Positions 11,696 through 38,285 of a stretch of 64,000 bases of DNA are shown one piece after another. A program made the translations under genes and the position numbers. The notes beneath the pieces are model-generated. The model was not told the origin of the DNA. It was given only the letters and a program-made list of their open reading frames with translations, and did no database searches. Origin of the DNA: Xanthomonas nasturtii (GTDB lineage: Bacteria; Pseudomonadota; Gammaproteobacteria; Xanthomonadales; Xanthomonadaceae); contig NZ_LYMI01000056.1 in assembly GCF_001660815.1 (NCBI RefSeq), positions 1-64,000 of the forward strand, given 5' to 3'. The stretch's first letter is position 1. Every line of letters begins with the position of its first letter.

Positions 11696-12955
11696 TTAAC
11701 CCACCACTGCGCCGAGTTTGAAGATCGGAAGATACATGCCGATGACCATGCCGCCGACGATGGTACCAATGAACACCATGATCAGCGGCTCCAGCAGGCT
11801 GCTGAGCGCGTCCACGGCGTTGTTGACCTCCTCCTCGAAGTAGTCAGCTACCTTGAACAGCATCGTGTCCAAAGCGCCTGCTTCTTCGCCAATTGCGGTC
11901 ATCTGCACCACCATGTGCGGAAACAGATTCACTTGTTTCATCGCCATGTTCACCGGATAGCCGACCGATACGTCGTCGCGCATCCGCAGTACGGCCTCTT
12001 CGTAGACCTTGTTGCCGGTGGCGCCTGCAACGATCCCAAGTGCCTCGACGAGAGGTACGCCTGCCTTGAACGTTACGGCAGTAGTGCGTGCAAAACGTGC
12101 AATTGCGCTGTTGTGCATGATCTGCCCAATCACGGGGACCTTGAGGATCAATCGATCCAATGCATGCTGCATCCGTGGAGAACGTTTGTAGGCAAAGATG
12201 AAGCCAACGATAGATCCAACTGTCACCATCAGCATCAACCACCAATAGCTGACCATAAAGCGCGAGGCATTGACGAGAAGCTGAGTGAATGCCGGTAGTT
12301 CAGCGCCGAAATTCTTGAATACCTCTTCGAACTGAGGTACCACGAAGATAAGCAAAATCGCACTTACAACGATTGCCACGGCAACCACCATGGCAGGGTA
12401 GAACATTGCCTTTTTGATCTTGCCCTTGAGGGCTTCAATGTTCTCTTTGTACGTGGCGACCGTATCTAGGACAGTCTCCAGCACACCGGCACCTTCACCC
12501 GCGCGGACAAGGTTGCGGTAGAGCTCGTCAAATTGGACGGGGTGTTTGCTGATGGACTCGTAGAGCGAGGATCCCCCCTCAATGTCTGTCCTGACCTGGC
12601 CGACCATCTTCTTCATGCGTGGGTTCTTGTGTCCCTCGCCGATGATCTCCAGGGAACTGACGATAGGAACGCCTGACTTCATCATCGTCGCCATCTGGCG
12701 GCTAAAGAACGCAATGTCTTTGGCGGTAATCTTCTTGCCCGCCGCTCCGAACAGGGGCTTTGGCTTTTGCTTCACCATGCTGGGCACGATGCCCTGACGG
12801 CGCAGCTCTGCTCGCAACATATTGGCGTTACGGGCTGTCTGCTCTCCCTTCATTTTCACGCCACGCTTGTCAGCCCCTTCCCAAACGAAGGTCTGCAGCA
12901 GGCTGGTGTTCCGGTCGACCGATTGCTTCTTGATGGCGCTACGCGCGACTGACAT
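11696..12955 (-). CDS. pilC: Type IV pilus inner-membrane platform protein PilC
   Basis: 419-residue polytopic protein of the GspF/PilC family that couples the motor ATPases to pilin assembly. Two T2SSF repeats are visible: the first starting near KDIAFFSRQMATMMKSGVP and the second near ARFARTTAVTFKAGVPLVEAL. Each carries the GE-AG motif (RAGEGAGVLETVL and IGEEAGALDTML). Three membrane helices are evident (VVAVAIVVSAILLIFVV, a middle segment, and the C-terminal IMVFIGTIVGGMVIGMYLP). ATG 12955 is chosen because GGAGGGGAG lies just upstream; an in-frame extension to 13069 has no such site. It is the first gene of pilC-pilD-coaE, divergent from pilA. Confidence 0.93.
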   Translation of the reverse strand: MSVARSAIKKQSVDRNTSLLQTFVWEGADKRGVKMKGEQTARNANMLRAELRRQGIVPSMVKQKPKPLFGAAGKKITAKDIAFFSRQMATMMKSGVPIVSSLEIIGEGHKNPRMKKMVGQVRTDIEGGSSLYESISKHPVQFDELYRNLVRAGEGAGVLETVLDTVATYKENIEALKGKIKKAMFYPAMVVAVAIVVSAILLIFVVPQFEEVFKNFGAELPAFTQLLVNASRFMVSYWWLMLMVTVGSIVGFIFAYKRSPRMQHALDRLILKVPVIGQIMHNSAIARFARTTAVTFKAGVPLVEALGIVAGATGNKVYEEAVLRMRDDVSVGYPVNMAMKQVNLFPHMVVQMTAIGEEAGALDTMLFKVADYFEEEVNNAVDALSSLLEPLIMVFIGTIVGGMVIGMYLPIFKLGAVVG

Positions 12956-13063
12956 ATTGAGCTCCCCTCCAGCCATCCCCAGGCCGGAATTTATGTGGAT
13001 GGTAGCGTGTTTGACTGGGAAGGACATCACTGCAAGTTGCTGCACGTCGATTGACCTGTTTGG

Positions 13064-13102
13064 GGTCACTTAGCGGTCAATATGTGACCTGTCGCGTCAC
13101 AT
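13064..13102. promoter_or_regulatory. Cluster of GTCAC/GTGAC half-sites in the pilC-pilA divergent region
   Basis: ATGTGAC (13082-13088) and GTCACAT (13096-13102) form a perfect 7-bp inverted repeat with a 7-base centre. A further GGTCAC at 13064-13069 pairs with GTGACC at 13085-13090. The region lies upstream of pilC and between the divergent pil genes, so it may be an operator. The regulator is unknown. The spacing does not match a CRP/Clp site (nine bases between TGTGA and TCACA instead of six). Confidence 0.35.
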
Positions 13103-13200: not shown

Positions 13201-13217
13201 TTGGCATACAACCTGCA
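13201..13217 (+). promoter_or_regulatory. Sigma-54 (-24/-12) promoter of pilA
   Basis: TTGGCATACAACCTGCA has the invariant GG (13203-13204) and GC (13215-13216) separated by exactly ten bases, the RpoN core promoter geometry. It lies about 95 bases before the pilA start. pilA transcription by RpoN with PilR is well established in Pseudomonas, and pilS-pilR lie nearby here. Confidence 0.8.
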
Positions 13218-13309: not shown

Positions 13310-13714
13310 ATGAAGAAGCAACAAGGTTTTACCCTGATCGAACTGATGATCGTTGTCGCGATTATCGCTATCCTGGCCGCCATTGCTCTGCCGGCTTACC
13401 AGGACTACCTGATCAAGGCCCGTGTGTCGGAAGTCATGCTGGCGGCTTCGTCTGCCCGTACCACTGTCGCTGAAGCTGCAGCGGCTGATACCGCGACTAC
13501 CATGCCGGCGACTGTTCCTATCGAAGCCCAGTCTTCTAAGTACGTATCTGGCGTGACCTATGCGAGTGGCGTGATTACTGCAACCGGGCAAGCTTTGGGC
13601 GGCACCGCTACAGGCAATATCACCTTGACTGGCGCAAAGAGCGCAAATGGCCAGGTCGTCTGGACGTGCAGCGGTTCAATCCCGGCTAAGTACCGTCCTG
13701 CCACCTGCCAGTAA
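13310..13714 (+). CDS. pilA: Major type IV pilin PilA
   Basis: 134-residue prepilin. A six-residue leader MKKQQG ends in the conserved Gly before Phe1, followed by [19 protein letters not shown] with Glu5, the class IVa N-terminal helix cleaved by PilD. The globular domain is rich in Ala, Thr and Ser and ends with a disulfide loop between Cys120 and Cys133 ([14 protein letters not shown]). The Ser/Thr-rich surface would offer O-glycosylation sites. A sigma-54 promoter lies upstream and a strong terminator directly downstream. Only one pilin gene is present, whereas I recall tandem pilA genes at this position in X. citri; here four modification-like genes occupy the pilA-pilB interval. Confidence 0.95.
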
Positions 13715-13744
13715 TGTGGCAAGAGTGACGCGCTAGATGCTATG

Positions 13745-13776
13745 CAAGAACCCCGCTTTTGCGGGGTTCTTGTTTT
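13745..13776 (+). terminator. Terminator between pilA and the modification genes
   Basis: CAAGAACCCCGC (13745-13756) pairs perfectly with GCGGGGTTCTTG (13761-13772) around a TTTT loop, followed by a TTTT run. It sits 30 bases after pilA and about 18 bases before the start of the next gene, so transcription of that gene from the pilA promoter would need partial read-through. Confidence 0.88.
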
Positions 13777-13793
13777 GGATATGGATCTCGCAC

Positions 13794-15698
13794 ATGTTGA
13801 CGCTGCGCAGGATCGCGCCCTGGTGCTTTGCGCTGGCGTTGATCGTCTATCTCAGGCCTTATACTGGCATCCGCCACGACGCGACGCTGTATTTGGCGCA
13901 GGCGTTACGCTTGATGTCGCCAGACATCTTTGACCGTGACCTGTTCTTCGTCGCGGGTAGCCAAGCCAGTTTCACGCTGTTCCCACGGTTGCTAGCGCTG
14001 CTATTGGCCCACCTGGAGCCGGGCAAGGCCTTCTTGGTACTGACCTTTGTCAGCCGCTTGCTCTTCTATGCTGCCAGCGCCTGGTGTGTGCATGTGCTGT
14101 TCCCGGCACGCTGGCGCTGGCCTGCGCTGCTGGCGCTGATCGTCATGCCGACTGGCTACGGCGCCTTCAGCATGTTTTCGTATGCGGAGCCATTCCTGAC
14201 CGCGCGACCCATTGCCGAAGCCCTATGCCTGCTTGCCATTGCGGCGCTGGTACGCGACCGTCTGGTTTGGGCTATAGCCTTGTTCGCTGCTGCGGGGTTG
14301 CTGCATCCCCTGCAGGCCATCGTCGTTGTGCTGGTGGCTTGGTGCTGGCTCGTGTTGGGTGACCGCCGATGGCTTTGGTCATTGCTGTTGGTGGTGCCTG
14401 TCCTGGTTCTTGCAGTATTGAAGGCCGGGCCCCTGGCTGGCCTGTTGCAGGTGATGGACACACAATGGCGCAGCATGATCGATGGCGTGGGCGACCAGGT
14501 GTTTCTAGGCTCCTGGACGCCGCGCGACTGGTGCATCGTAGTGGGGGATGTCTATTTGCTGAGCCTGCTGGCCCAGTGGAGTGGCCCCGACACGGTGTTA
14601 GGCCGGCTGGCAAAGGCAGTACTGCTCGCCACCATGCTTGGCTTAGGCTTGAGCTTCCTGTTGGCTGATGTGCTTAGGCTGATCCTGCCCATCGGCCTGC
14701 AACTATGGCGAGTGTTGTGGGTGGTGCATTGGTTGGCGGCGGCGTCAATTCCGTTCCTGGTTTGGGACCAATGGCAGCGGGGTGGACGCGGCTGGATTAG
14801 TCCCTTGCTGGTGATCACCATTGCCGTGATCGGTGCCAGCGTGCCACGCAGCACCTTGCCATGGGCCGTGCTGGGACTGATCCCGCTGCATATGGTCTGG
14901 CCGCATGTGGCTAATCGGGTGAGCCCCCCAATTCGTTACCTGCTGTTTGCAGGGTTGAGCTTGGCCATGGCGGTGGCCACCTTGCGCTACCAGCTACAGA
15001 TGTGGGCGGTGTACGAAATGACCGGACGCAATCCGGAAGTGGTTCGGCAGGACGTGATGATCTTCGCCTACCCGCTGATCTGCGGAGGGCTGGTCGCGTT
15101 GGCCGTCTGGGGCTACCGCAGCAGCGGGCCGAAGGGGCAAGCGCTGATGGGCGTGCTTTCCTTACTTGCCTTGGTCGGCGCCGTGAGCGTTTGGGATTCG
15201 CGCAGCCCGTGGACCCATGTCCAGGAATCCGCTTATGGCACGGTAGTGTTCAGCGAAGGCATCCCGCGGAATGCGAGCGTATTTTGGTTCGCCAGCGAGG
15301 CCTCGCCACGTGCGGCCTGGCTAGTGCTGCGTCGCGCCAATTACTACAGCCCGCAGCAGCTGTCCGGACAGATGTTCAACCGGCAAACCGCAATGCTTGG
15401 TAGAGAACTGAACGCTCAGGTCGAACCGGTGACATTGCAGGCCGAAATCTGTGAGGTGATGGCGAACGTGCAGGTTGCCCCCGAACCTTGCCGGATCAGC
15501 GAAGCGGGTCTGGAGTACCTGTGCACGCGCCACGGCGACCTAGCGGCACCTGATTACTTCGTGTTGCCGTTCGACCAGGAAAAGCATGTGCGCAGCAGGT
15601 GGCAGGTGCGTCATCCGCGCACAAGCGACGTCATTGCCACCGAATACCTTTATAAGTGCTCGGACTGGGTGCCGCAGCGTGGCGGTAGACAGGCATGA
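13794..15698 (+). CDS. Large polytopic membrane protein, GT-C-like; putative pilin glycosyltransferase (TfpW-like)
   Basis: 634-residue integral membrane protein. The N-terminal 480 residues alternate hydrophobic helices and short loops, starting with RIAPWCFALALIVYLRPY. They are followed at once by an acidic motif (GIRHDATLYLAQALRL), the position where GT-C glycosyltransferases carry their catalytic loop. The C-terminal 150 or so residues form a soluble domain with cysteines, probably periplasmic. This architecture resembles P. aeruginosa TfpW, which transfers arabinofuranose to group IV pilins and is also encoded just after pilA. Placement between pilA and pilB and the adjoining sugar-nucleotide genes support pilin modification, but sequence identity to TfpW was not tested. 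Start ATG 13794 follows the terminator; the stop overlaps gtrA. A+T content is higher than in flanking genes. Confidence 0.68.
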   Translation: MLTLRRIAPWCFALALIVYLRPYTGIRHDATLYLAQALRLMSPDIFDRDLFFVAGSQASFTLFPRLLALLLAHLEPGKAFLVLTFVSRLLFYAASAWCVHVLFPARWRWPALLALIVMPTGYGAFSMFSYAEPFLTARPIAEALCLLAIAALVRDRLVWAIALFAAAGLLHPLQAIVVVLVAWCWLVLGDRRWLWSLLLVVPVLVLAVLKAGPLAGLLQVMDTQWRSMIDGVGDQVFLGSWTPRDWCIVVGDVYLLSLLAQWSGPDTVLGRLAKAVLLATMLGLGLSFLLADVLRLILPIGLQLWRVLWVVHWLAAASIPFLVWDQWQRGGRGWISPLLVITIAVIGASVPRSTLPWAVLGLIPLHMVWPHVANRVSPPIRYLLFAGLSLAMAVATLRYQLQMWAVYEMTGRNPEVVRQDVMIFAYPLICGGLVALAVWGYRSSGPKGQALMGVLSLLALVGAVSVWDSRSPWTHVQESAYGTVVFSEGIPRNASVFWFASEASPRAAWLVLRRANYYSPQQLSGQMFNRQTAMLGRELNAQVEPVTLQAEICEVMANVQVAPEPCRISEAGLEYLCTRHGDLAAPDYFVLPFDQEKHVRSRWQVRHPRTSDVIATEYLYKCSDWVPQRGGRQA

Positions 15699-16156
15699 AC
15701 GAACCCTCTGCAGTGGAGGTCGTTGCAGCCACCACGACCCAGCGTAGCTGGGGGGGCGAAGGAGGAGGCTATCTGTTGGCTTCGGCTGTGGCGCTATTGG
15801 CGGACCTGGGTACTTTCGGTTTCCTCGCCAGATCCGGTTGGGGCTGGTACGGTGCTGCGGCTGCTGGCTTCTTGGTGGGCAGCCTTGTCTCCTACGTCAT
15901 TAGCGTTCGTTGGGTGTTCGCTACGCGCCGCTTCCATTCGCGCTCAGCAGAGCTTGCGATCTTCGTGATGATCGGTTGCTTCGGCTTGCTGGTTGTGCAG
16001 GGCGCAATGTGGTTTGGCATCGAGAGGCTTGGCATTCCGGGGAGTAGTGCCAGGCTGATTGCGGTGATTTTTTCATTTACATCGAACTTTTTACTGCGGA
16101 AATTGATTCTGTTCCGGCCGCGCGCGCGCGGATGGTCCATTGGGGAAGGGAAGTAG
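15695..16156 (+). CDS. GtrA-family four-helix membrane protein
   Basis: 153-residue protein of the GtrA family, small inner-membrane proteins proposed to flip polyprenyl-phosphate-linked sugars or to anchor their synthases. Four hydrophobic helices are visible ([59 protein letters not shown] and a last one around [20 protein letters not shown]). The motif [10 protein letters not shown], close to the family's N-x-x-W-VF, and the C-terminal FTSNFLLRK are typical. It overlaps the preceding gene (ATGA) and ends one base before the flavoprotein start, so the three genes form one transcription unit. A GtrA protein also sits beside the arabinofuranose genes of mycobacteria (Rv3789). Confidence 0.82.
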
Positions 16157-16157
16157 C

Positions 16158-17702
16158 ATGAGCAAACATGTGGTAGTCATCGGTGCTGGACCCGCAGGGC
16201 TGACGGCCGCGCTGGAGCTGGTTGAGCAGTCCGGCGTACAGGTAACGGTGCTGGAAGCCGATAGCTGTGTCGGCGGAATTTCGCGCACGGTCAACCACAA
16301 CGGTAATCGCATCGACATCGGTGGGCATCGTTTTTTCTCTAAATCGGACTGGGTGATGCAGTGGTGGGCCAATCTGATGCCCATCGAACACTCGGGCGAT
16401 GTTCCGTTGAACCTGCGCTACCAAGGCCAAGCGCGCGAAGGACTGCCGGCTGGTGCCGCGTTAGCCGATGGGGTCGAGCCGACCGCCATGCTGGTACGAA
16501 ACCGCTTATCACGGATCTATTTTAACCGGCGCTTATTTTCCTATCCATTGAAGTTGAACGTGGAAAGCTTCCGCAAACTAGGCGTGGGCAAGTCCGTGTT
16601 GTTTGGTTTCAGCTATTTGCGCGCGCAGGTCCGCAAGATTGAGCCAGAGGTGAGTCTGGAGGATTTCCTGATCAACCGATTTGGCCAGCGCCTGTATGGC
16701 CAGTTCTTCAAGGAATATACCGAGAAGGTATGGGGTGTGCCCTGCAGCCAGATTAGTGCCGAATGGGGTGCGCAGCGCATCAAGAGCTTGTCGGTTACCA
16801 AGGCGGTGCTACATGCACTGCGGGGCATGCTGGGTCTGAATGGCAAGGTTGCGCAGACCTCTCTGATCGAGAATTTCCTATACCCCAAGCATGGTCCCGG
16901 TGAAATGTGGGAAACCGCGGCGCAGGTGTTCCAAGCGCGCGGCGGTACCCTGCTGATGAAACACAAGGTCGTGGGCCTTGCTGTGGATGAGGGGCAGGTG
17001 CGCAGCGTGACCGTGCAGAACGAGGAGGGGGATGCCTTCAAGCTCGATTGCAGCCACGTGGTATCGACGATGCCTATGCGTGACTTAGTGGTTGCCTCGC
17101 GGCAGAGCTGGGGCGAGGATATTGTTGCTCTCGCCGAAAACTTGCAGTACCGAGATTTCATCACCGTGGGATTGCTATACCGGGCCAACGAGTTGCCGCG
17201 AGCTCTGGGTGACAACTGGATATACATCCAGGAGCCAGGCGTCAATGTGGGGCGCGTACAGATTTTCAATAATTGGAGTCCGCATATGGTCAAGGATGCG
17301 TCCATGGTGTGGATTGGGCTAGAGTTCTTTTGTCGTGAAACCGATGATCTCTGGAAGATGCCCGATACCGATTTGCAGCAGTTGGCGCAGCGGGAAATGT
17401 TGCAGATCGGACTGGTTTCCGCTTCTGTGGCGCAGGATGCGGTGGTGATTCGGGTGCCCAAAGCCTACCCAGGTTATTTCGGCGAATCGTATGCACGCTT
17501 CGATCAGTTGCGTACGGCGTTGGACGCGGTGCCCAACCTGTTCCTGGTGGGCCGCAACGGCATGCATCGCTATAATAACCAAGACCACTCGATGCTAACG
17601 GCTAAAGAAGCGGCCGAGCAAATACTGACCGGCAATGTGGACAAGAGCCGCTTGTGGTCGATCAACGTGGATGATGAGTACCACGAAGAAGCCAAGTCTT
17701 AA
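16158..17702 (+). CDS. FAD-dependent oxidoreductase / UDP-galactopyranose-mutase-like flavoprotein
   Basis: 514-residue flavoprotein. The Rossmann dinucleotide site is [19 protein letters not shown], with the ribose-binding acid in [46 protein letters not shown] and the C-terminal [15 protein letters not shown] complete a pattern shared by amine-oxidase-like proteins that act on sugar nucleotides and by UDP-galactopyranose mutases. The likely reaction is ring contraction or redox chemistry on a UDP-sugar made with the GalE homologue next door; a phytoene-desaturase or protoporphyrinogen-oxidase-like activity is an alternative. A GGGGAAGGGAAG stretch gives a strong ribosome binding site. The A+T-richer codon use suggests horizontal acquisition. 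Exact substrate unknown. Confidence 0.72.
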
Positions 17703-17804
17703 GTATGGATCAGCGCTGAGCCGTTTTCGGCTGATGCCCGGGCTTGGCTGGTGGAGCAGGGCCGGATTGTCGTGGTGTTTTGATTACACATGGAGTTGAA
17801 CAAG

Positions 17805-18782
17805 ATGTGGAGTGTCCTTGTTTGTGGCGGGGCAGGGTATATCGGTAGCCATATGTCTCAGTGGCTGGCCGAACAAGGGCATGTAGTGACTGTGCTGGAC
17901 AATCTGTCCACCGGTCATCGTCAAGCAGTCAAATGGGGGGAGTTTATTCAGGCGGATTTGCTGGATAACGCATCGTTGGCGCGAGCTTTTGACAGGCGTG
18001 AGTATGACGTTGTGATGCATTTTGCGGCGACCTCGCTGATAGCCGCATCAGTATGCGATCCGCTTCCCACGTACCAGAACAACGTGACTGGCACGCTAAA
18101 CCTCCTGGCGCAGATGCGTCGGCGCGGCGTGGATAAATTGGTGTTCTCTTCTACCGCGGCGGTGTTCGGGCAATCATCCATGATGCTGATCGATGAGCAG
18201 CAATTGATGCATCCGATCACGCCCTACGGTGCCAGTAAACTAATGGTGGAACGTATTCTTTCTGATGCGTGGGCGGCTTATGGCCTGTCTTCTGTAGTGC
18301 TTCGCTACTTCAATGCTGCTGGTGCTCTTTCCGAGCATGGTATCGGTGAGGCGCATGCTTACGAAACGCACCTCATTCCGAATGCACTAAGGGCAGCTGC
18401 CGGGCAAGCGCCGCCCCTGAAAGTGTTTGGCGCCGACTACCCTACGGCTGACGGAACATGCATTCGCGATTATGTGCACGTACAAGACCTAGCCAGGGCC
18501 CATGCACTGGCAGTTTCTCTGCTTGAGTCCAATCCGGGTGCCCACGATTTCAACCTGGGCAGTGAGCACGGCTACTCGGTGATGGATATTGTCGCGGCTG
18601 CTGAGAAGGTGGTTGGTCGTCCCGTACCGTTCGAGTTGGTAGGTAGGCGCCCCGGCGATCCTGCGCGACTGGTGGCCTCCAGTGCCAAAGCACGTGATGT
18701 GCTTGGTTGGGAACGCAGTTGGCAGGATATGCTCGGAATTATTGAGAGTGCTTGGCACTGGCACCGTGCCCAGTCATTCTGA
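17805..18782 (+). CDS. galE: UDP-glucose 4-epimerase-type NAD-dependent epimerase
   Basis: Extended short-chain dehydrogenase of 325 residues. The NAD motif is LVCGGAGYIGSH, the catalytic Ser/Thr region is VFSSTAAVFG, the catalytic Tyr-Lys pair is in TPYGASKLM, and VLRYFNAAGA, DGTCIRDYVHVQDLA and GRRPGDPA are GalE signatures. It would interconvert UDP-glucose and UDP-galactose, or a related pair, to feed the neighbouring flavoprotein. ATG 17805 is preferred because GGAG lies nine bases upstream and MWSVLVCGGAGYIG starts in the family register; the ATG at 17790 is also possible. A gap of about 100 bases separates it from the flavoprotein gene and one of 119 bases from pilB. Whether it is the cell's only GalE cannot be judged from this window. 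Confidence 0.85.
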   Translation: MWSVLVCGGAGYIGSHMSQWLAEQGHVVTVLDNLSTGHRQAVKWGEFIQADLLDNASLARAFDRREYDVVMHFAATSLIAASVCDPLPTYQNNVTGTLNLLAQMRRRGVDKLVFSSTAAVFGQSSMMLIDEQQLMHPITPYGASKLMVERILSDAWAAYGLSSVVLRYFNAAGALSEHGIGEAHAYETHLIPNALRAAAGQAPPLKVFGADYPTADGTCIRDYVHVQDLARAHALAVSLLESNPGAHDFNLGSEHGYSVMDIVAAAEKVVGRPVPFELVGRRPGDPARLVASSAKARDVLGWERSWQDMLGIIESAWHWHRAQSF

Positions 18783-18901: not shown

Positions 18902-20635
<1,734 letters not shown>

Positions 20636-20764: not shown

Positions 20765-22159
<1,395 letters not shown>

Positions 22160-22338
22160 GGTGCGCACGATAGCCCACGGCGATGACAGCCGACAATTGT
22201 GGGGCGCGTTGGCGCCTAACGATTCACGCGATCAAACAACGGTGCATCGCTCGGACAAGGCACGACGCGTCGCGGCTGGCCGCAGGCACACGCTGCGCAC
22301 TTGGCCTGCGCAAGGCAGGCATGACTCTGCGATGCCGC

Positions 22339-23952
22339 TCACTTGCCCAGCAACCCGTTGGGCACCTGCAGCAAGATCCGGAAGCAGGCGCCGCCGCCAG
22401 GCACCGACACGTAGTCCAGTCGCGCCTGGTTGGCGCGGCACAGTTCCTGGGCGATGTACAGGCCCAGGCCGGTGCCGTGTTCGGAGGTGGTGTAGAACGG
22501 GCGGAACAGCTGTGCGGCCACGGTTTCCGGGATGCCGGGGCCGCGGTCGATCACATCGATCACCGCCATGCGCTCGAGGCGTTCGACGCGCAGCTTGACC
22601 CGCGCCGGCTCGTCCATCACCCGGCCGTACTTGAGTGCGTTATGCACCAGCGCGGTGAGGATCTGATGCAGATGCTTGGGGTCGACCAGGGCGTGCACCG
22701 AGCTGCCCTGGATGCTGGCTTCCAGAATGTCGGTTTCCATCGACAGGGTCTGCCGGTACTCCACCACGAAGCGGCGCACGAATGCCGCCAGGTCCAGATT
22801 GTCCGGGCTGGCGCGCTCGCGGCGGGCCAGCGCGAGCACGCTTTCGACGATGCCGTTGGTGCGCTGGCATTGCTGGTGGATGATCTGCAGCAGGCGGCGA
22901 TCGGCATCGCCGATGTCCGGCGATTCTTCCAACAGTTGCGAGGCGTAGCTGATCGCCGCGAGCGGGTTGCGGATCTCGTGCGCCAGGCTGGCCGAGAAGC
23001 GGCCCATGGCCGACAAGGTCAGCGATTCGGCGCGGCGCGAGACCACGCTGGCGTCGTCCAGGAACACCAGCACCAGGTCGCTGTCGGCGAGCAGGCGCAC
23101 GAAGCGCGGCTGCACTTCCGGGCGGTCCGCGCCCAGTTGCAGCGGGGCCTCTTCCTCGCGCCAGCCGCTACGCCAGCGCTGCAGCCGGCGCGCCAGTTCC
23201 GGGGTCAGCGCCACCAACGACAGGTTGGCGGGCGCGTTGCGCTGGTCGCCATCGCCAAGCAGGGCCAGCGCCGCTTCGTTGGCCAGCGAGATGTGGTTAT
23301 GGGTGTCCACCACCAGCACGCCGGTGCGCATGCGCCGGATGATCAGTTCATTGATCTCGTACAGGTTGGCGACCTGGGCGCCGCGTTGTTCGGCCAGCAC
23401 CTGGTTGCTGCGCGCGCGGGAGGCGATCTGCTGGCAGATATAGGCCACGGCCACATAGCTGGTGGCAAACATCGCCAGCTCGGCCAGCGGGCGGGTGGCG
23501 CCGCCGCCTTCGAGCACCGTCCACAGATATTCGAGCACGATGGCGGCACTGGCCAGCACCGCCACGCTCATGCCGTAGCGCAGCCGCAGCAGGATCGAGG
23601 CGGCGGCGACGTTGAACAGCAGCATCATCGCGATGCCGGCGCTGGCGCCGGGCAGGGCGTGCGTGGCCAGGGAGGCGGCCAGGATGTCGGCCACCACCGC
23701 GCTCAGTACGGTCGGGGTGAGGCGGCGTTCGCCACGGCCCCAGAACAACAGCGGGATCGCCATGCATAGATAGCCGATCGCCACGCCGGCGGCCAGGCGT
23801 GGGTAGCGCGGCTCGGGGATGGCGTCGGACAACGGGCTGAACACCAGTGCGGCGATCAGGCCGGCCACCAGCACCCGGTACAACGAGAAAAAGTACAGCT
23901 CGCGCTGCGGCGCGGACTGGATCCGGGCGATGAGCGATGCGATGGATGCCAA
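22339..23952 (-). CDS. pilS: Sensor histidine kinase PilS
   Basis: 537-residue membrane kinase controlling PilR. About six hydrophobic helices occupy residues 20-185 (for example VLVAGLIAALVFSPL, LLFNVAAASILLRL). A PAS-like region follows (MRTGVLVVDTHNHI), then HisKA with the phospho-acceptor His in ASLAHEIRNPLAAISYA, N box VHNALKYG, G1 box VIDRGPGIPE and G2 box HGTGLGLYIAQEL. In Pseudomonas PilS senses pilin levels directly through the membrane segments. A TTG at 23952 is chosen as start because GGGGAA lies upstream and the resulting length fits the family; the open frame extends upstream without homology. It is divergent from sucC. Confidence 0.9.
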   Translation of the reverse strand: MASIASLIARIQSAPQRELYFFSLYRVLVAGLIAALVFSPLSDAIPEPRYPRLAAGVAIGYLCMAIPLLFWGRGERRLTPTVLSAVVADILAASLATHALPGASAGIAMMLLFNVAAASILLRLRYGMSVAVLASAAIVLEYLWTVLEGGGATRPLAELAMFATSYVAVAYICQQIASRARSNQVLAEQRGAQVANLYEINELIIRRMRTGVLVVDTHNHISLANEAALALLGDGDQRNAPANLSLVALTPELARRLQRWRSGWREEEAPLQLGADRPEVQPRFVRLLADSDLVLVFLDDASVVSRRAESLTLSAMGRFSASLAHEIRNPLAAISYASQLLEESPDIGDADRRLLQIIHQQCQRTNGIVESVLALARRERASPDNLDLAAFVRRFVVEYRQTLSMETDILEASIQGSSVHALVDPKHLHQILTALVHNALKYGRVMDEPARVKLRVERLERMAVIDVIDRGPGIPETVAAQLFRPFYTTSEHGTGLGLYIAQELCRANQARLDYVSVPGGGACFRILLQVPNGLLGK

Positions 23953-24184
23953 GCCGAATTCCCCGCTGGAGCGAGCCGCGAGTATAGGCAGGTGCGCGGT
24001 CTGGGCAGCGTTTGTACACAGAGTCGGCCTGCGCGCAAGCGTTGCGATCAGGCGGCCAAACCCGGCGAATTTTGCGCCGCACGGCGTGGTCGGCCACAAT
24101 AGGAGGCCCGTTCGCGTCCTATGACGTGCCGCCTAGGCGGACTGCGTTGCACGCAGCGGTCGTTTCCTTTTCCCACGGTGACGC

Positions 24185-35807: not shown

Positions 35808-38285
35808 TTACTTCGCCGGCTTGGCCTGCGCATCGTCCGGCAATGCCCAGGCGATCACGCTGTCGCCGGACTTGGTTTCCATGCGGTCGTGTCCACCCAC
35901 GGCGGCCACGATGTATTGCTTGCCATCGATGGTGTAGCTCAGCGGTGCCGCTTGCGGGCCAGCCGGTACGCGGGTTTCCCAGACCTGCTTGCCGGTGCGG
36001 GTGTCGAAGCCGCGCATGAAATCGTCCAGGGTCGCGCCGATGAAGGTCACGCCGCCAGCGGTGGTCAGCGAGCCGCTGTTGTTGGGCGTGCCGATCTCGA
36101 ACTTGGTCTTGGACGGGATGCCCATCGGGCCCTGGTCGTAACCTGTGCCCAGTGGACGGCGCCACAGCACCTGCTGGGTGCGCAGGTCCACGCCGGCGAT
36201 GTAGCCCCACGGCGGTGCCACGCACGGGGTGTTGAGCGGCGACATCCACGGTTCCTTGCGGGCGCCGTAGGCCAGGCCCTTCTGCGCCATGTAGCCCGGC
36301 GTCTTGCTCTTGCCGTCGAACACCGACACCACGCCCAGCTCATTCATTTTTTCGCGGGTATAGACCTCCAGGGTGTAGGGCAGGCGATTGCTGTTCATCA
36401 CCATGATGCCGCGCTGCAGATCGACCGAGACACCGCCCCAGTTGATGCCGCCGTGGTTGCCGGTGAATGCCAGCGAGCCTTGCAACGTCGGCGGGGTGAA
36501 CATGCCTTCGTAGCGCAACTGCTTGAACTGGATACGGCAGGCCAGCTGGTCGAACGGGGTCATGCCCCAGGCATCGGATTCGATGATGGTTTCGACCTCA
36601 CGGCTCGGCGCACCCACGGTGTTGGGCATGCCCGGCGAAATCGGCTGGGTGGCAGCGGTCCAGTCGCCATGATCGGTGCCCTGCGGCACGGCCATCTGCT
36701 TGACCGGCATCAGCGGCGCGCCGGTGGCACGGTCCAGCACGAATACCTGGCCGGACTTGGTGGCCTGGATCACCGCAGGACGGGTGCCGCCGCCAGCCAC
36801 CGGCCAATCCACCAGATTGGGCTGCGGGCCGATGTCGTAATCCCACAGGTCGTGATTGACGGTGCGGAAGTGCCAGCGTTCCTTGCCGGTGGCCGCATCC
36901 ACGGCAACCAACGAGGCGGTGTATTCCTCGTCCTGCGGGGTACGGCTCTTGCCGAAGAAGTCGCCGGAGGCATTGCCGGTGGGCAGGTAGACCAGGCCCA
37001 ACTCATCGTCGGCGGCCATCAGCGACCACACGTTCGGGGTGGAGCGGGTATAGGTCTGCCCGGCCGGCGGCTCGGCGGTGATTGCCGGGTTGCCCAGGTC
37101 CCAGGCCCAACGCAGCTGGCCGGTGAGCGCATCGAAACCGCGCACCACGCCCGACGGCGCATCGCCTTCCTGACCGTCACGGACCTGGCCGGTCGGCTGG
37201 ATCACCACGCCGCGCATCACCACCGGCGGCGAGGTCGGGCCGACGAAGCCCGGCTTGGTGTTGCCGGTGCCGGCATTGAGGTCCACATAGCCGTTATTGC
37301 CGAAGCTGGTGCACAGCTTGCCGGTCTGCGCATCCAGCGCGCCGAGGCGACCATCGACCATCGGCCAGAAGATCCGTGTCGGGCACTCGGCAGTGCCTTC
37401 CGGCGCCTGGTAGTACGACACGCCGCGGCAGGTGGTGGCAGCGACGCCGGCCATCGCCTTGGGGTTGGTCTGCGGGTCGAAGCGCCAGCGCTCCCTGCCG
37501 TTGGCCGCTTCCACCGCGATCACCTTCTGGGTGGGCGTGCAGATATACAGCAGCTCGCCGATCTTGAGCGGGGTGTTCTGGAAGGCATAGCCCAGCTTGG
37601 AGCCGGCCGGCTTGAGATCGCCGGTATGGAATTCCCAGGCAATCTTGAGGTTCTTGACGTTGTCCGGGGTGATCTGTGCGCCGGGGGTGTAATGGTTGGA
37701 CAGGTTGGAGCCGGCATAGGCGGTCCAGTTGCTGGCGTCGTGATTGGCCGCGACGTTGCCGTCCGGGCTGGGCACGGTGCCGCGGCTGAAGGCGGTGGCA
37801 GTATCCGCCGGCTGCCTGGATGCGTCGGCCAGCTCCACATTGCGCGGCACAAACAGCGGCCACAGGATCAGGGCGGCGCCCAGGATCGGCAGTACGCCTG
37901 TCACCACGACATAGCCGGCGCCGGACAACGGCTGCATGCGTCGACGCGCCACGCCCCAGAACGGCAGCAACACCAGACCCACTACCGACATCCAGGCCAG
38001 ACGCGGGACCAGGCCCCAGCCATCCAGGCCCACTTCCCACAGTGCCCAGGCGATGGTGGCGGCCAGCGTTGCGCCAAACAGCCACAGGCCGGTGCGCTTG
38101 CCCAGCGCCAGCAATGCGCCCGCCAGGAACAGGCCGATGCCTGCCAACAGGTAGTACCAGGAGCCGCCGACAGCCACCAGGCGGCCGCCTTCGTAGGCAA
38201 GCACCGCACCGAGCACGGCGATCACCACTGCATAGGCCACCAGCAACCAGGTGCCTAGCCCACGTTTTGAGGATTGATCAGTCAT
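35808..38285 (-). CDS. gcd: Membrane-bound PQQ-dependent glucose dehydrogenase family protein
   Basis: 825-residue quinoprotein. Five hydrophobic helices occupy residues 11-150 (LLVAYAVVIAVLGAVLAYEG, YYLLAGIGLFLAGALLALG and others), as in the E. coli Gcd anchor that passes electrons to ubiquinone. The periplasmic beta-propeller begins near residue 165 and carries repeated tryptophan-docking motifs such as GRERWRFDPQTNP, TGQLRWAWDLGNP, TGKERWHFRTVNHDLWDYD and TGKQVWETRVP. Nearby cysteines in CTSFG and TTCRGVSYY are typical. The substrate is glucose by analogy, but other sugars or polyols are possible. No PQQ synthesis genes lie in this window. Confidence 0.9.
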   Translation of the reverse strand: MTDQSSKRGLGTWLLVAYAVVIAVLGAVLAYEGGRLVAVGGSWYYLLAGIGLFLAGALLALGKRTGLWLFGATLAATIAWALWEVGLDGWGLVPRLAWMSVVGLVLLPFWGVARRRMQPLSGAGYVVVTGVLPILGAALILWPLFVPRNVELADASRQPADTATAFSRGTVPSPDGNVAANHDASNWTAYAGSNLSNHYTPGAQITPDNVKNLKIAWEFHTGDLKPAGSKLGYAFQNTPLKIGELLYICTPTQKVIAVEAANGRERWRFDPQTNPKAMAGVAATTCRGVSYYQAPEGTAECPTRIFWPMVDGRLGALDAQTGKLCTSFGNNGYVDLNAGTGNTKPGFVGPTSPPVVMRGVVIQPTGQVRDGQEGDAPSGVVRGFDALTGQLRWAWDLGNPAITAEPPAGQTYTRSTPNVWSLMAADDELGLVYLPTGNASGDFFGKSRTPQDEEYTASLVAVDAATGKERWHFRTVNHDLWDYDIGPQPNLVDWPVAGGGTRPAVIQATKSGQVFVLDRATGAPLMPVKQMAVPQGTDHGDWTAATQPISPGMPNTVGAPSREVETIIESDAWGMTPFDQLACRIQFKQLRYEGMFTPPTLQGSLAFTGNHGGINWGGVSVDLQRGIMVMNSNRLPYTLEVYTREKMNELGVVSVFDGKSKTPGYMAQKGLAYGARKEPWMSPLNTPCVAPPWGYIAGVDLRTQQVLWRRPLGTGYDQGPMGIPSKTKFEIGTPNNSGSLTTAGGVTFIGATLDDFMRGFDTRTGKQVWETRVPAGPQAAPLSYTIDGKQYIVAAVGGHDRMETKSGDSVIAWALPDDAQAKPAK

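Follow-up and report, generated by a model that had tools for sequence, protein, structure and literature searches.

The type IV pilus locus of Xanthomonas nasturtii raises the question of what is done by four genes that lie between the pilin gene pilA and the pilus assembly gene pilB. The locus was analysed in a stretch of 64,000 nucleotides (contig NZ_LYMI01000056.1 of NCBI RefSeq assembly GCF_001660815.1, positions 1 to 64,000 of the forward strand), referred to here as the window, and the four genes probably form a pilin O-glycosylation system. All four are on the pilA (+) strand and fill the pilA-pilB interval from 13794 to 18782, as a preliminary description of this DNA had stated. They encode a membrane glycosyltransferase of 634 amino acids with a predicted GT-C fold (13794-15698, ATG start), a small membrane protein of the GtrA family, presumed to be a polyprenyl-phosphate-sugar flippase (15695-16156, 153 amino acids), a PRK07208-type flavoprotein resembling UDP-galactopyranose mutase (UGM) and presumed to be a UDP-sugar furanose mutase (16158-17702, 514 amino acids), and a GalE-type UDP-hexose 4-epimerase (17790-18782, 330 amino acids). 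The GT-C gene and gtrA overlap by 4 bases and the flavoprotein gene begins 1 base past gtrA, confirming the tight spacing described for the first three genes, and galE lies 87 bases downstream of the flavoprotein gene. The presumed acceptor is the major type IV pilin PilA, of 134 amino acids, encoded at 13310-13714 (+; PF00114, 54.3 bits; PF07963, 45.2 bits). No published account of this gene set was found in the open-licence literature.

Nothing above cut-off was found in Pfam or NCBIfam for the 634-residue protein, whose N-terminus was extended by 19 residues for the scan, and a sequence search for solved structures gave no relative at E values up to 10. Its predicted structure has a GT-C fold; the preliminary description had called the protein GT-C-like and had named a lack of structural match to any GT-C fold as refuting, and the comparison thus came out in its favour. 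An acidic residue is present in the first periplasmic loop (H28-D29/D49), where it would be suited to a catalytic role; H28-D29 and D49 are invariant in 12 of 12 GT-C sequences and are located past the first helix of the structural model. Kinship with TfpW was considered and rejected, the hhalign probability being 2.4 % with no profile match, in a comparison that covered six Xanthomonas proteins from the same gap, which we take to be TfpW-like, rather than TfpW itself. A tblastn search of 50,697 phage records, a set without plasmids, found no match to the GT-C protein.

The flavoprotein scores 691.4 bits against NF005546/PRK07208 (curated cut-off 418), and it falls below the cut-offs of the prokaryotic UGM models TIGR00031 (34.1 of 303.75 bits) and PF03275 (12.6 of 26.3 bits). 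Its modelled structure has a UGM fold, and residues R207, R366, Y356, Y472, N474 and H57, which align with residues of the Aspergillus fumigatus UGM, are invariant in 14 of 14 sequences; the fold and the catalytic residues bear out the earlier view that the protein is UGM-like. Identity to eukaryotic-type UGM (A. fumigatus 3ukh and its mutants; 4dsg/4dsh) is 19-24 % in structural alignments, and the flavoprotein, for which mutase activity is predicted, differs from that type by its membership of the PRK07208 family. The GtrA protein scores 56.2 bits against PF04138 (cut-off 26.1) and 16.4 bits against NCBIfam gtrA_1, below the cut-off of 50, and the epimerase scores 401.9 bits against TIGR01179 (cut-off 262.3), so that the family names first given to these two proteins on the basis of the open reading frames hold. 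GalE would make UDP-galactose (UDP-Gal), and the flavoprotein, to judge from its fold and residues, would convert a UDP-pyranose, most likely UDP-galactopyranose (UDP-Galp), to the furanose. It is proposed tentatively, at rather less than even confidence, that the type IV pilin is decorated with a hexofuranose (galactofuranose, Galf) by way of a UGM-like mutase, a polyprenyl-phosphate-furanose, GtrA, and a GT-C enzyme of a group that has no curated model. It is somewhat unlikely that the pilin is glycosylated with a different sugar, the product of GalE and the flavoprotein being other than UDP-Galf (e.g. GalfNAc or an arabinose form) or the added sugar being a pyranose. The substrates of the UGM family vary (one of the structural matches, 4mo2, is a UDP-GalNAc mutase), the TIGR00031 score is far under its cut-off, and GalE homologues can accept various UDP-sugars, whereas the UGM arginine pair, active-site tyrosines and asparagine are kept and the closest solved structures are UDP-Galp mutases. 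Elsewhere in the same genome (contig C36, L128:3449-4489) an open reading frame matches only the first half of a classical UGM (TIGR00031 positions 2-183 of 378, 184.6 bits) and adjoins a second GalE; it is either a disrupted gene or an artefact of the draft assembly.

The gene order PilA, GT-C, GtrA, flavoprotein, GalE, PilB is also present in Xanthomonas prunicola (genome G220, locus L017), Xanthomonas cannabis (G202, L018), Stenotrophomonas geniculata (G071, L019 and L011) and Stenotrophomonas sp. RAC2 (L020), and because the order is kept in these genomes the set is no chance arrangement. Genome G026 (L012) has the same order minus GalE. Identity to the window's GT-C protein is 91 % in X. 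prunicola, 88 % in X. cannabis, 59 % in S. geniculata, 58 % in RAC2 and 46 % in G026, and the corresponding values for the flavoprotein are 93, 93, 85, 85 and 66 %. All eight Xanthomonadaceae GT-C loci found, which represent four genera (these five genomes, the window's genome G000, G131 and G183), lie between pilin genes and pilB. The set fills the gap in six of the eight, and G183 and G131 have longer clusters whose last genes before pilB are two GT-C genes in tandem (35-38 % identity to the window GT-C). In G183 (L162, L013) the cluster begins with three tandem pilin genes and continues with GtrA (40 % identity over 119 residues), the flavoprotein (64 %), glycan genes, the GT-C pair, pilB and pilC; that of G131 has two pilin genes and then, in order, the flavoprotein (66 %), a 566-amino-acid protein, a GT2 glycosyltransferase, methyltransferase-type proteins, GtrA, the GT-C pair and pilB. 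The longest-open-reading-frame caller used can hide genes behind longer, probably spurious frames, and tblastn recovered pilB in both of these genomes as well as GtrA in RAC2, G183 and G672. The glycan stretch of G183 contains nonulosonic-acid-type genes, namely those for a PF02719 protein, a DegT aminotransferase and NeuB.

The GT-C and flavoprotein genes occur together. In the family sample the same 5 of 198 genomes match the GT-C protein (E 1e-3) and the flavoprotein (E 1e-20), and in the genus sample the same 3 of 35 do so at these limits, the stricter flavoprotein limit being used because a more permissive family model picks up short FAD-domain stretches in the great majority of genomes (219 of the 274 in the class sample, with 6 of 274 over cut-off). 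The flavoprotein was also present in seven of seven GT-C genomes queried individually, four of which overlap with the family set. This pairing, without exception in the samples of family and genus, offers a clue to the role of the PRK07208 flavoprotein. GT-C profile matches in the phylum sample were limited to 5 of 398 genomes, which are G000, G071 and, from another family, G497, G544 and G672. The two genes adjoin in G497, G544 and G672, as they do in a Planctomycetota bin (L022), the G497 flavoprotein being cut by a contig end, and no PilA match was found within the 8-19 kb searched around the pair in the four. The neighbours of the pair differ at each of these places (L130 in G497, L131 in G672, L132 in G544, and L022). 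A Rhodocyclaceae bin (L021) had no flavoprotein match in 12.6 kb, on a contig that starts 991 bases before the GT-C match. The pairing is one-way, because the flavoprotein family also occurs without a nearby GT-C gene (G332, G365, G477, G415, G465 and G267, where 9-18 kb of sequence yielded no GT-C match).

These distributions bear on whether the four genes are one unit. GalE, and perhaps GtrA, might serve the whole cell, with only the GT-C/flavoprotein pair being of consequence; this is improbable. The G026 gap is without GalE, galE stands 87 bases apart in the window, and no GtrA match was found by tblastn beside the pair in G497, G544 or L022, a fusion of GT2 and GtrA lying about 5.5 kb away in L132. 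Against this, in the window gtrA overlaps the GT-C gene, GtrA is kept in the five other loci with the window's set, in G183 and G131, and in G672 (L131), where tblastn placed it between the flavoprotein and GT-C genes, and Xanthomonas and Stenotrophomonas have both retained GalE.

The pilA-pilB gap itself varies within the genus. PilB was matched in 34 of 35 genus genomes and the stretch before pilB was read in the window and 33 others; the resulting counts of cassette types rest on the same gene caller, were partly rechecked and may miss small genes, and the family scans sampled one to a few members per type. The window's set, type A, occupies three of these genomes. Type B (five genomes; L066, L069, L070, L077, L078) comprises a PF00884 membrane protein with MFS-like and spermidine-synthase-like proteins, and is a candidate pilin phosphoform-modification set; the PF00884 protein, measured on L070, is closest to the CptA phosphoethanolamine transferase NF007933 (146.7 bits, cut-off 404). 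The L078 copies look broken and L070 has no listed middle open reading frame. Type C (five; L058, L072, L073, L074, L082) comprises a TPR-bearing GT-C-like protein, an EamA-type protein and a GT2 protein, with a methyltransferase listed in four of the five. Types D (L085) and E (L086, a GT-C-like gene between two pilin genes) occur once each, 18 genomes have only pilins in the gap, and in one (L083) the gap is interrupted by a contig end. Weak TPR matches were found in two of three scanned GT-C-like proteins of types C, D and E, sets with GT2, EamA-type and methyltransferase partners that we take to resemble TfpW systems. Type C seems to correspond to a gene set in Xanthomonas vesicatoria BNM 214 and 216, where passages of PMC10333488 list six genes between pilB and pilC. 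That set is at the same locus as the window's and likewise combines a pilin with glycosyltransferases and a small transporter, but its genes are others, and the passages concerned do not read them as pilin glycosylation genes. The preliminary description had spoken of a cassette inserted between pilA and pilB; the site is indeed variable, with several alternative sets occupying it, of which the window's is one. The gap thus appears to be a site where alternative pilin-modification sets swap.

Cassette type was compared with pilin type in a PilA tree of 36 rows with one pilin per locus, from which second pilins, the duplicates L063 and L068, and the pilins of G131 and G183 were left out. Six type-A PilA from three genera, five type-C PilA and the PilA of the cassette-free locus L079 form one set with 99/100 support, and the cassette labels require 6 changes (minimum 5) compared with a shuffled mean of 16.9, with 0 of 200 shuffles as low. 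A PilB tree requires 11 changes (shuffled mean 16.0, 0 of 200 as low); it also has 36 rows, from a different set (four type-C rows, not five) and by a quicker method, so that the counts of the two trees do not form a strict pair. Shared descent also clusters the labels, to a lesser extent. All six type-A PilA share ten Ser/Thr positions, and three of these (prepilin positions 75, 80 and 132) are candidate glycosylation sites, Ser/Thr being present there in only 24-32 % of the 25 pilins that belong to neither type A nor type C. Two observations weigh against the link between pilin and cassette: the G131 and G183 pilins diverge widely from the window PilA, and the L079 (G213) PilA is near type A (75 % identity to the window) with no cassette in its pilA-pilB gap. 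L079 may represent a recent loss or gain of a cassette. Pilin glycosylation is favoured because the eight loci all lie between pilins and pilB, the GT-C and flavoprotein genes are paired, the folds match, the other gap occupants are of modification type, and PilA sorts with cassette type. It is quite improbable that the cassette acts on lipopolysaccharide or another envelope glycan, as for a Gtr-type O-antigen side chain, and is at the pil locus incidentally, for although GtrA and GT-C are the classic O-antigen modification pair (passages of PMC11127046) and related GT-C/flavoprotein pairs occur without a nearby PilA match, that placement in eight of eight Xanthomonadaceae loci, the agreement of cassette type with PilA phylogeny and the modification-type character of the other occupants argue otherwise. 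What stands of the glycosylation first proposed is thus the GT-C fold, the UGM-like fold and residues, and the conservation of the set between pilins and pilB in four genera; the role of PilA as acceptor and the sugar are inferred.

For pilin glycosylation to proceed as proposed, a polyprenyl-phosphate glycosyltransferase encoded elsewhere would load the furanose onto undecaprenyl phosphate, GtrA, as its family suggests, would flip the lipid-linked sugar, and the GT-C protein would transfer the sugar, on the periplasmic side, to Ser/Thr residues of PilA, an acceptor suggested by gene position. Lipid loading is the main gap of this pathway; as noted at the outset by the preliminary description, no polyprenyl-phosphate sugar transferase is among the four genes. 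The genome has 16 GT2 matches, with no dedicated GtrB partner of the cassette shown among them. The G131 pilin cluster holds a GT2 protein resembling dolichyl-phosphate mannose synthase (best NCBIfam matches AglJ, 119 bits, and PpgS, 69 bits, both below cut-off), and its best relative in the window's genome (contig C18) was rejected as a GtrB partner. The C18 gene, likewise for a GT2 protein resembling dolichyl-phosphate mannose synthase and the only one of the GT2 genes of this genome taken through a genus-wide presence test, is not tied to the cassette, because its distribution includes G000 and G202 and not G220. It is patchy (21 of 35 genus genomes) and in G000 (C18, about 37323-38051, L133) adjoins a gene for a large membrane protein, presumably GT39-like.

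The cassette can be set against known systems as they are described in passages of the sources cited. TfpO and TfpW glycosylate pilins, and pilin glycosylation in Pseudomonas aeruginosa helps in phage escape (PMC11841053). The TfpW system of P. aeruginosa group IV, as described in papers citing Kus 2008 and Harvey 2011, and the window are alike in having a GT-C gene with the pilin gene, a terminator after the pilin gene and a proposed lipid-linked furanose donor. The arabinofuranose route to the P. aeruginosa pilin is proposed to start with a polyprenyl-phosphoribose synthase (PPPRS) dependent on phosphoribosyl pyrophosphate (PRPP) (PMC11127046), whereas the window set has the UGM-like enzyme and GalE instead. 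Family scans of the four cassette genes found neither PPPRS nor DprE1/E2 among them, and the arabinofuranose analogy drawn earlier is therefore a loose one. The GT136 three-component extracytoplasmic pentofuranose systems, which use GT-C enzymes and PRPP-derived donors (PMC11127046), share with the window the lipid-linked furanose, a flippase, a GT-C enzyme and a modular association with sugar-converting enzymes; they differ in that the window's four genes are without PPPRS or a MATE flippase, with the UGM-like enzyme and GtrA instead, and the gene linked to them as presumed acceptor encodes a pilin. GtrA-GtrB-Gtr O-antigen systems also have GtrA and GT-C adjacent, and the window cassette differs from them by the absence of GtrB, the additional UGM-like flavoprotein and GalE, and its location at pilA. 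If the hexofuranose proposal is correct, the cassette would be a second, PRPP-independent furanose route to pili, one of several interchangeable cassettes in Xanthomonadaceae. The type IV pilus is used by two Stenotrophomonas phages, DLP1 and DLP2 (PMC6024842). The gap sets plausibly replace each other under selection by pilus-binding phages. A second chemistry of pilin glycosylation, and swaps between glycan-type and phosphoform-type sets together with pilin type, would make the diversity of the Xanthomonas and Stenotrophomonas pilus surface predictable from sequence, and such predictions would be testable through PilA mass and phage sensitivity.

Two features beyond the preliminary description, a hairpin behind pilA and a sigma-54-type promoter match, bear on expression of the cassette. 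The hairpin (13744-13773, +, 13 bp), a presumed terminator or attenuator between pilA and the cassette, folds at -26.9 kcal/mol (z -6.05; 0 of 200 shuffles equally low); it was revealed by folding and was not listed by a consensus terminator scan. Hairpins of 8-14 bp lie 3' of pilA in five of six type-A loci, with a weak one in L011. Terminators between pilin and accessory genes have been published, including in X. campestris pv. vesicatoria (passages of PMC11841053). The pilA promoter probably drives expression of the cassette, damped by the hairpin. A promoter-like site is present upstream of pilA at 13201-13217 (+; GG at 13203-13204, GC at 13215-13216), matched to what we take to be the sigma-54-type -24/-12 consensus. 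The locus is flanked by the assembly ATPase gene pilB (18902-20635, +; TIGR02538, 889 bits, cut-off 675.65) and by a platform protein gene divergent from pilA (11696-13069, -), presumed from its position to be pilC; its best NCBIfam match is PilC NF052606 (393 bits, under the cut-off of 700) and its start is unsettled. A regulator of the sigma-54 type, presumably PilR, and a histidine kinase, presumably PilS, are encoded at 20765-24099.

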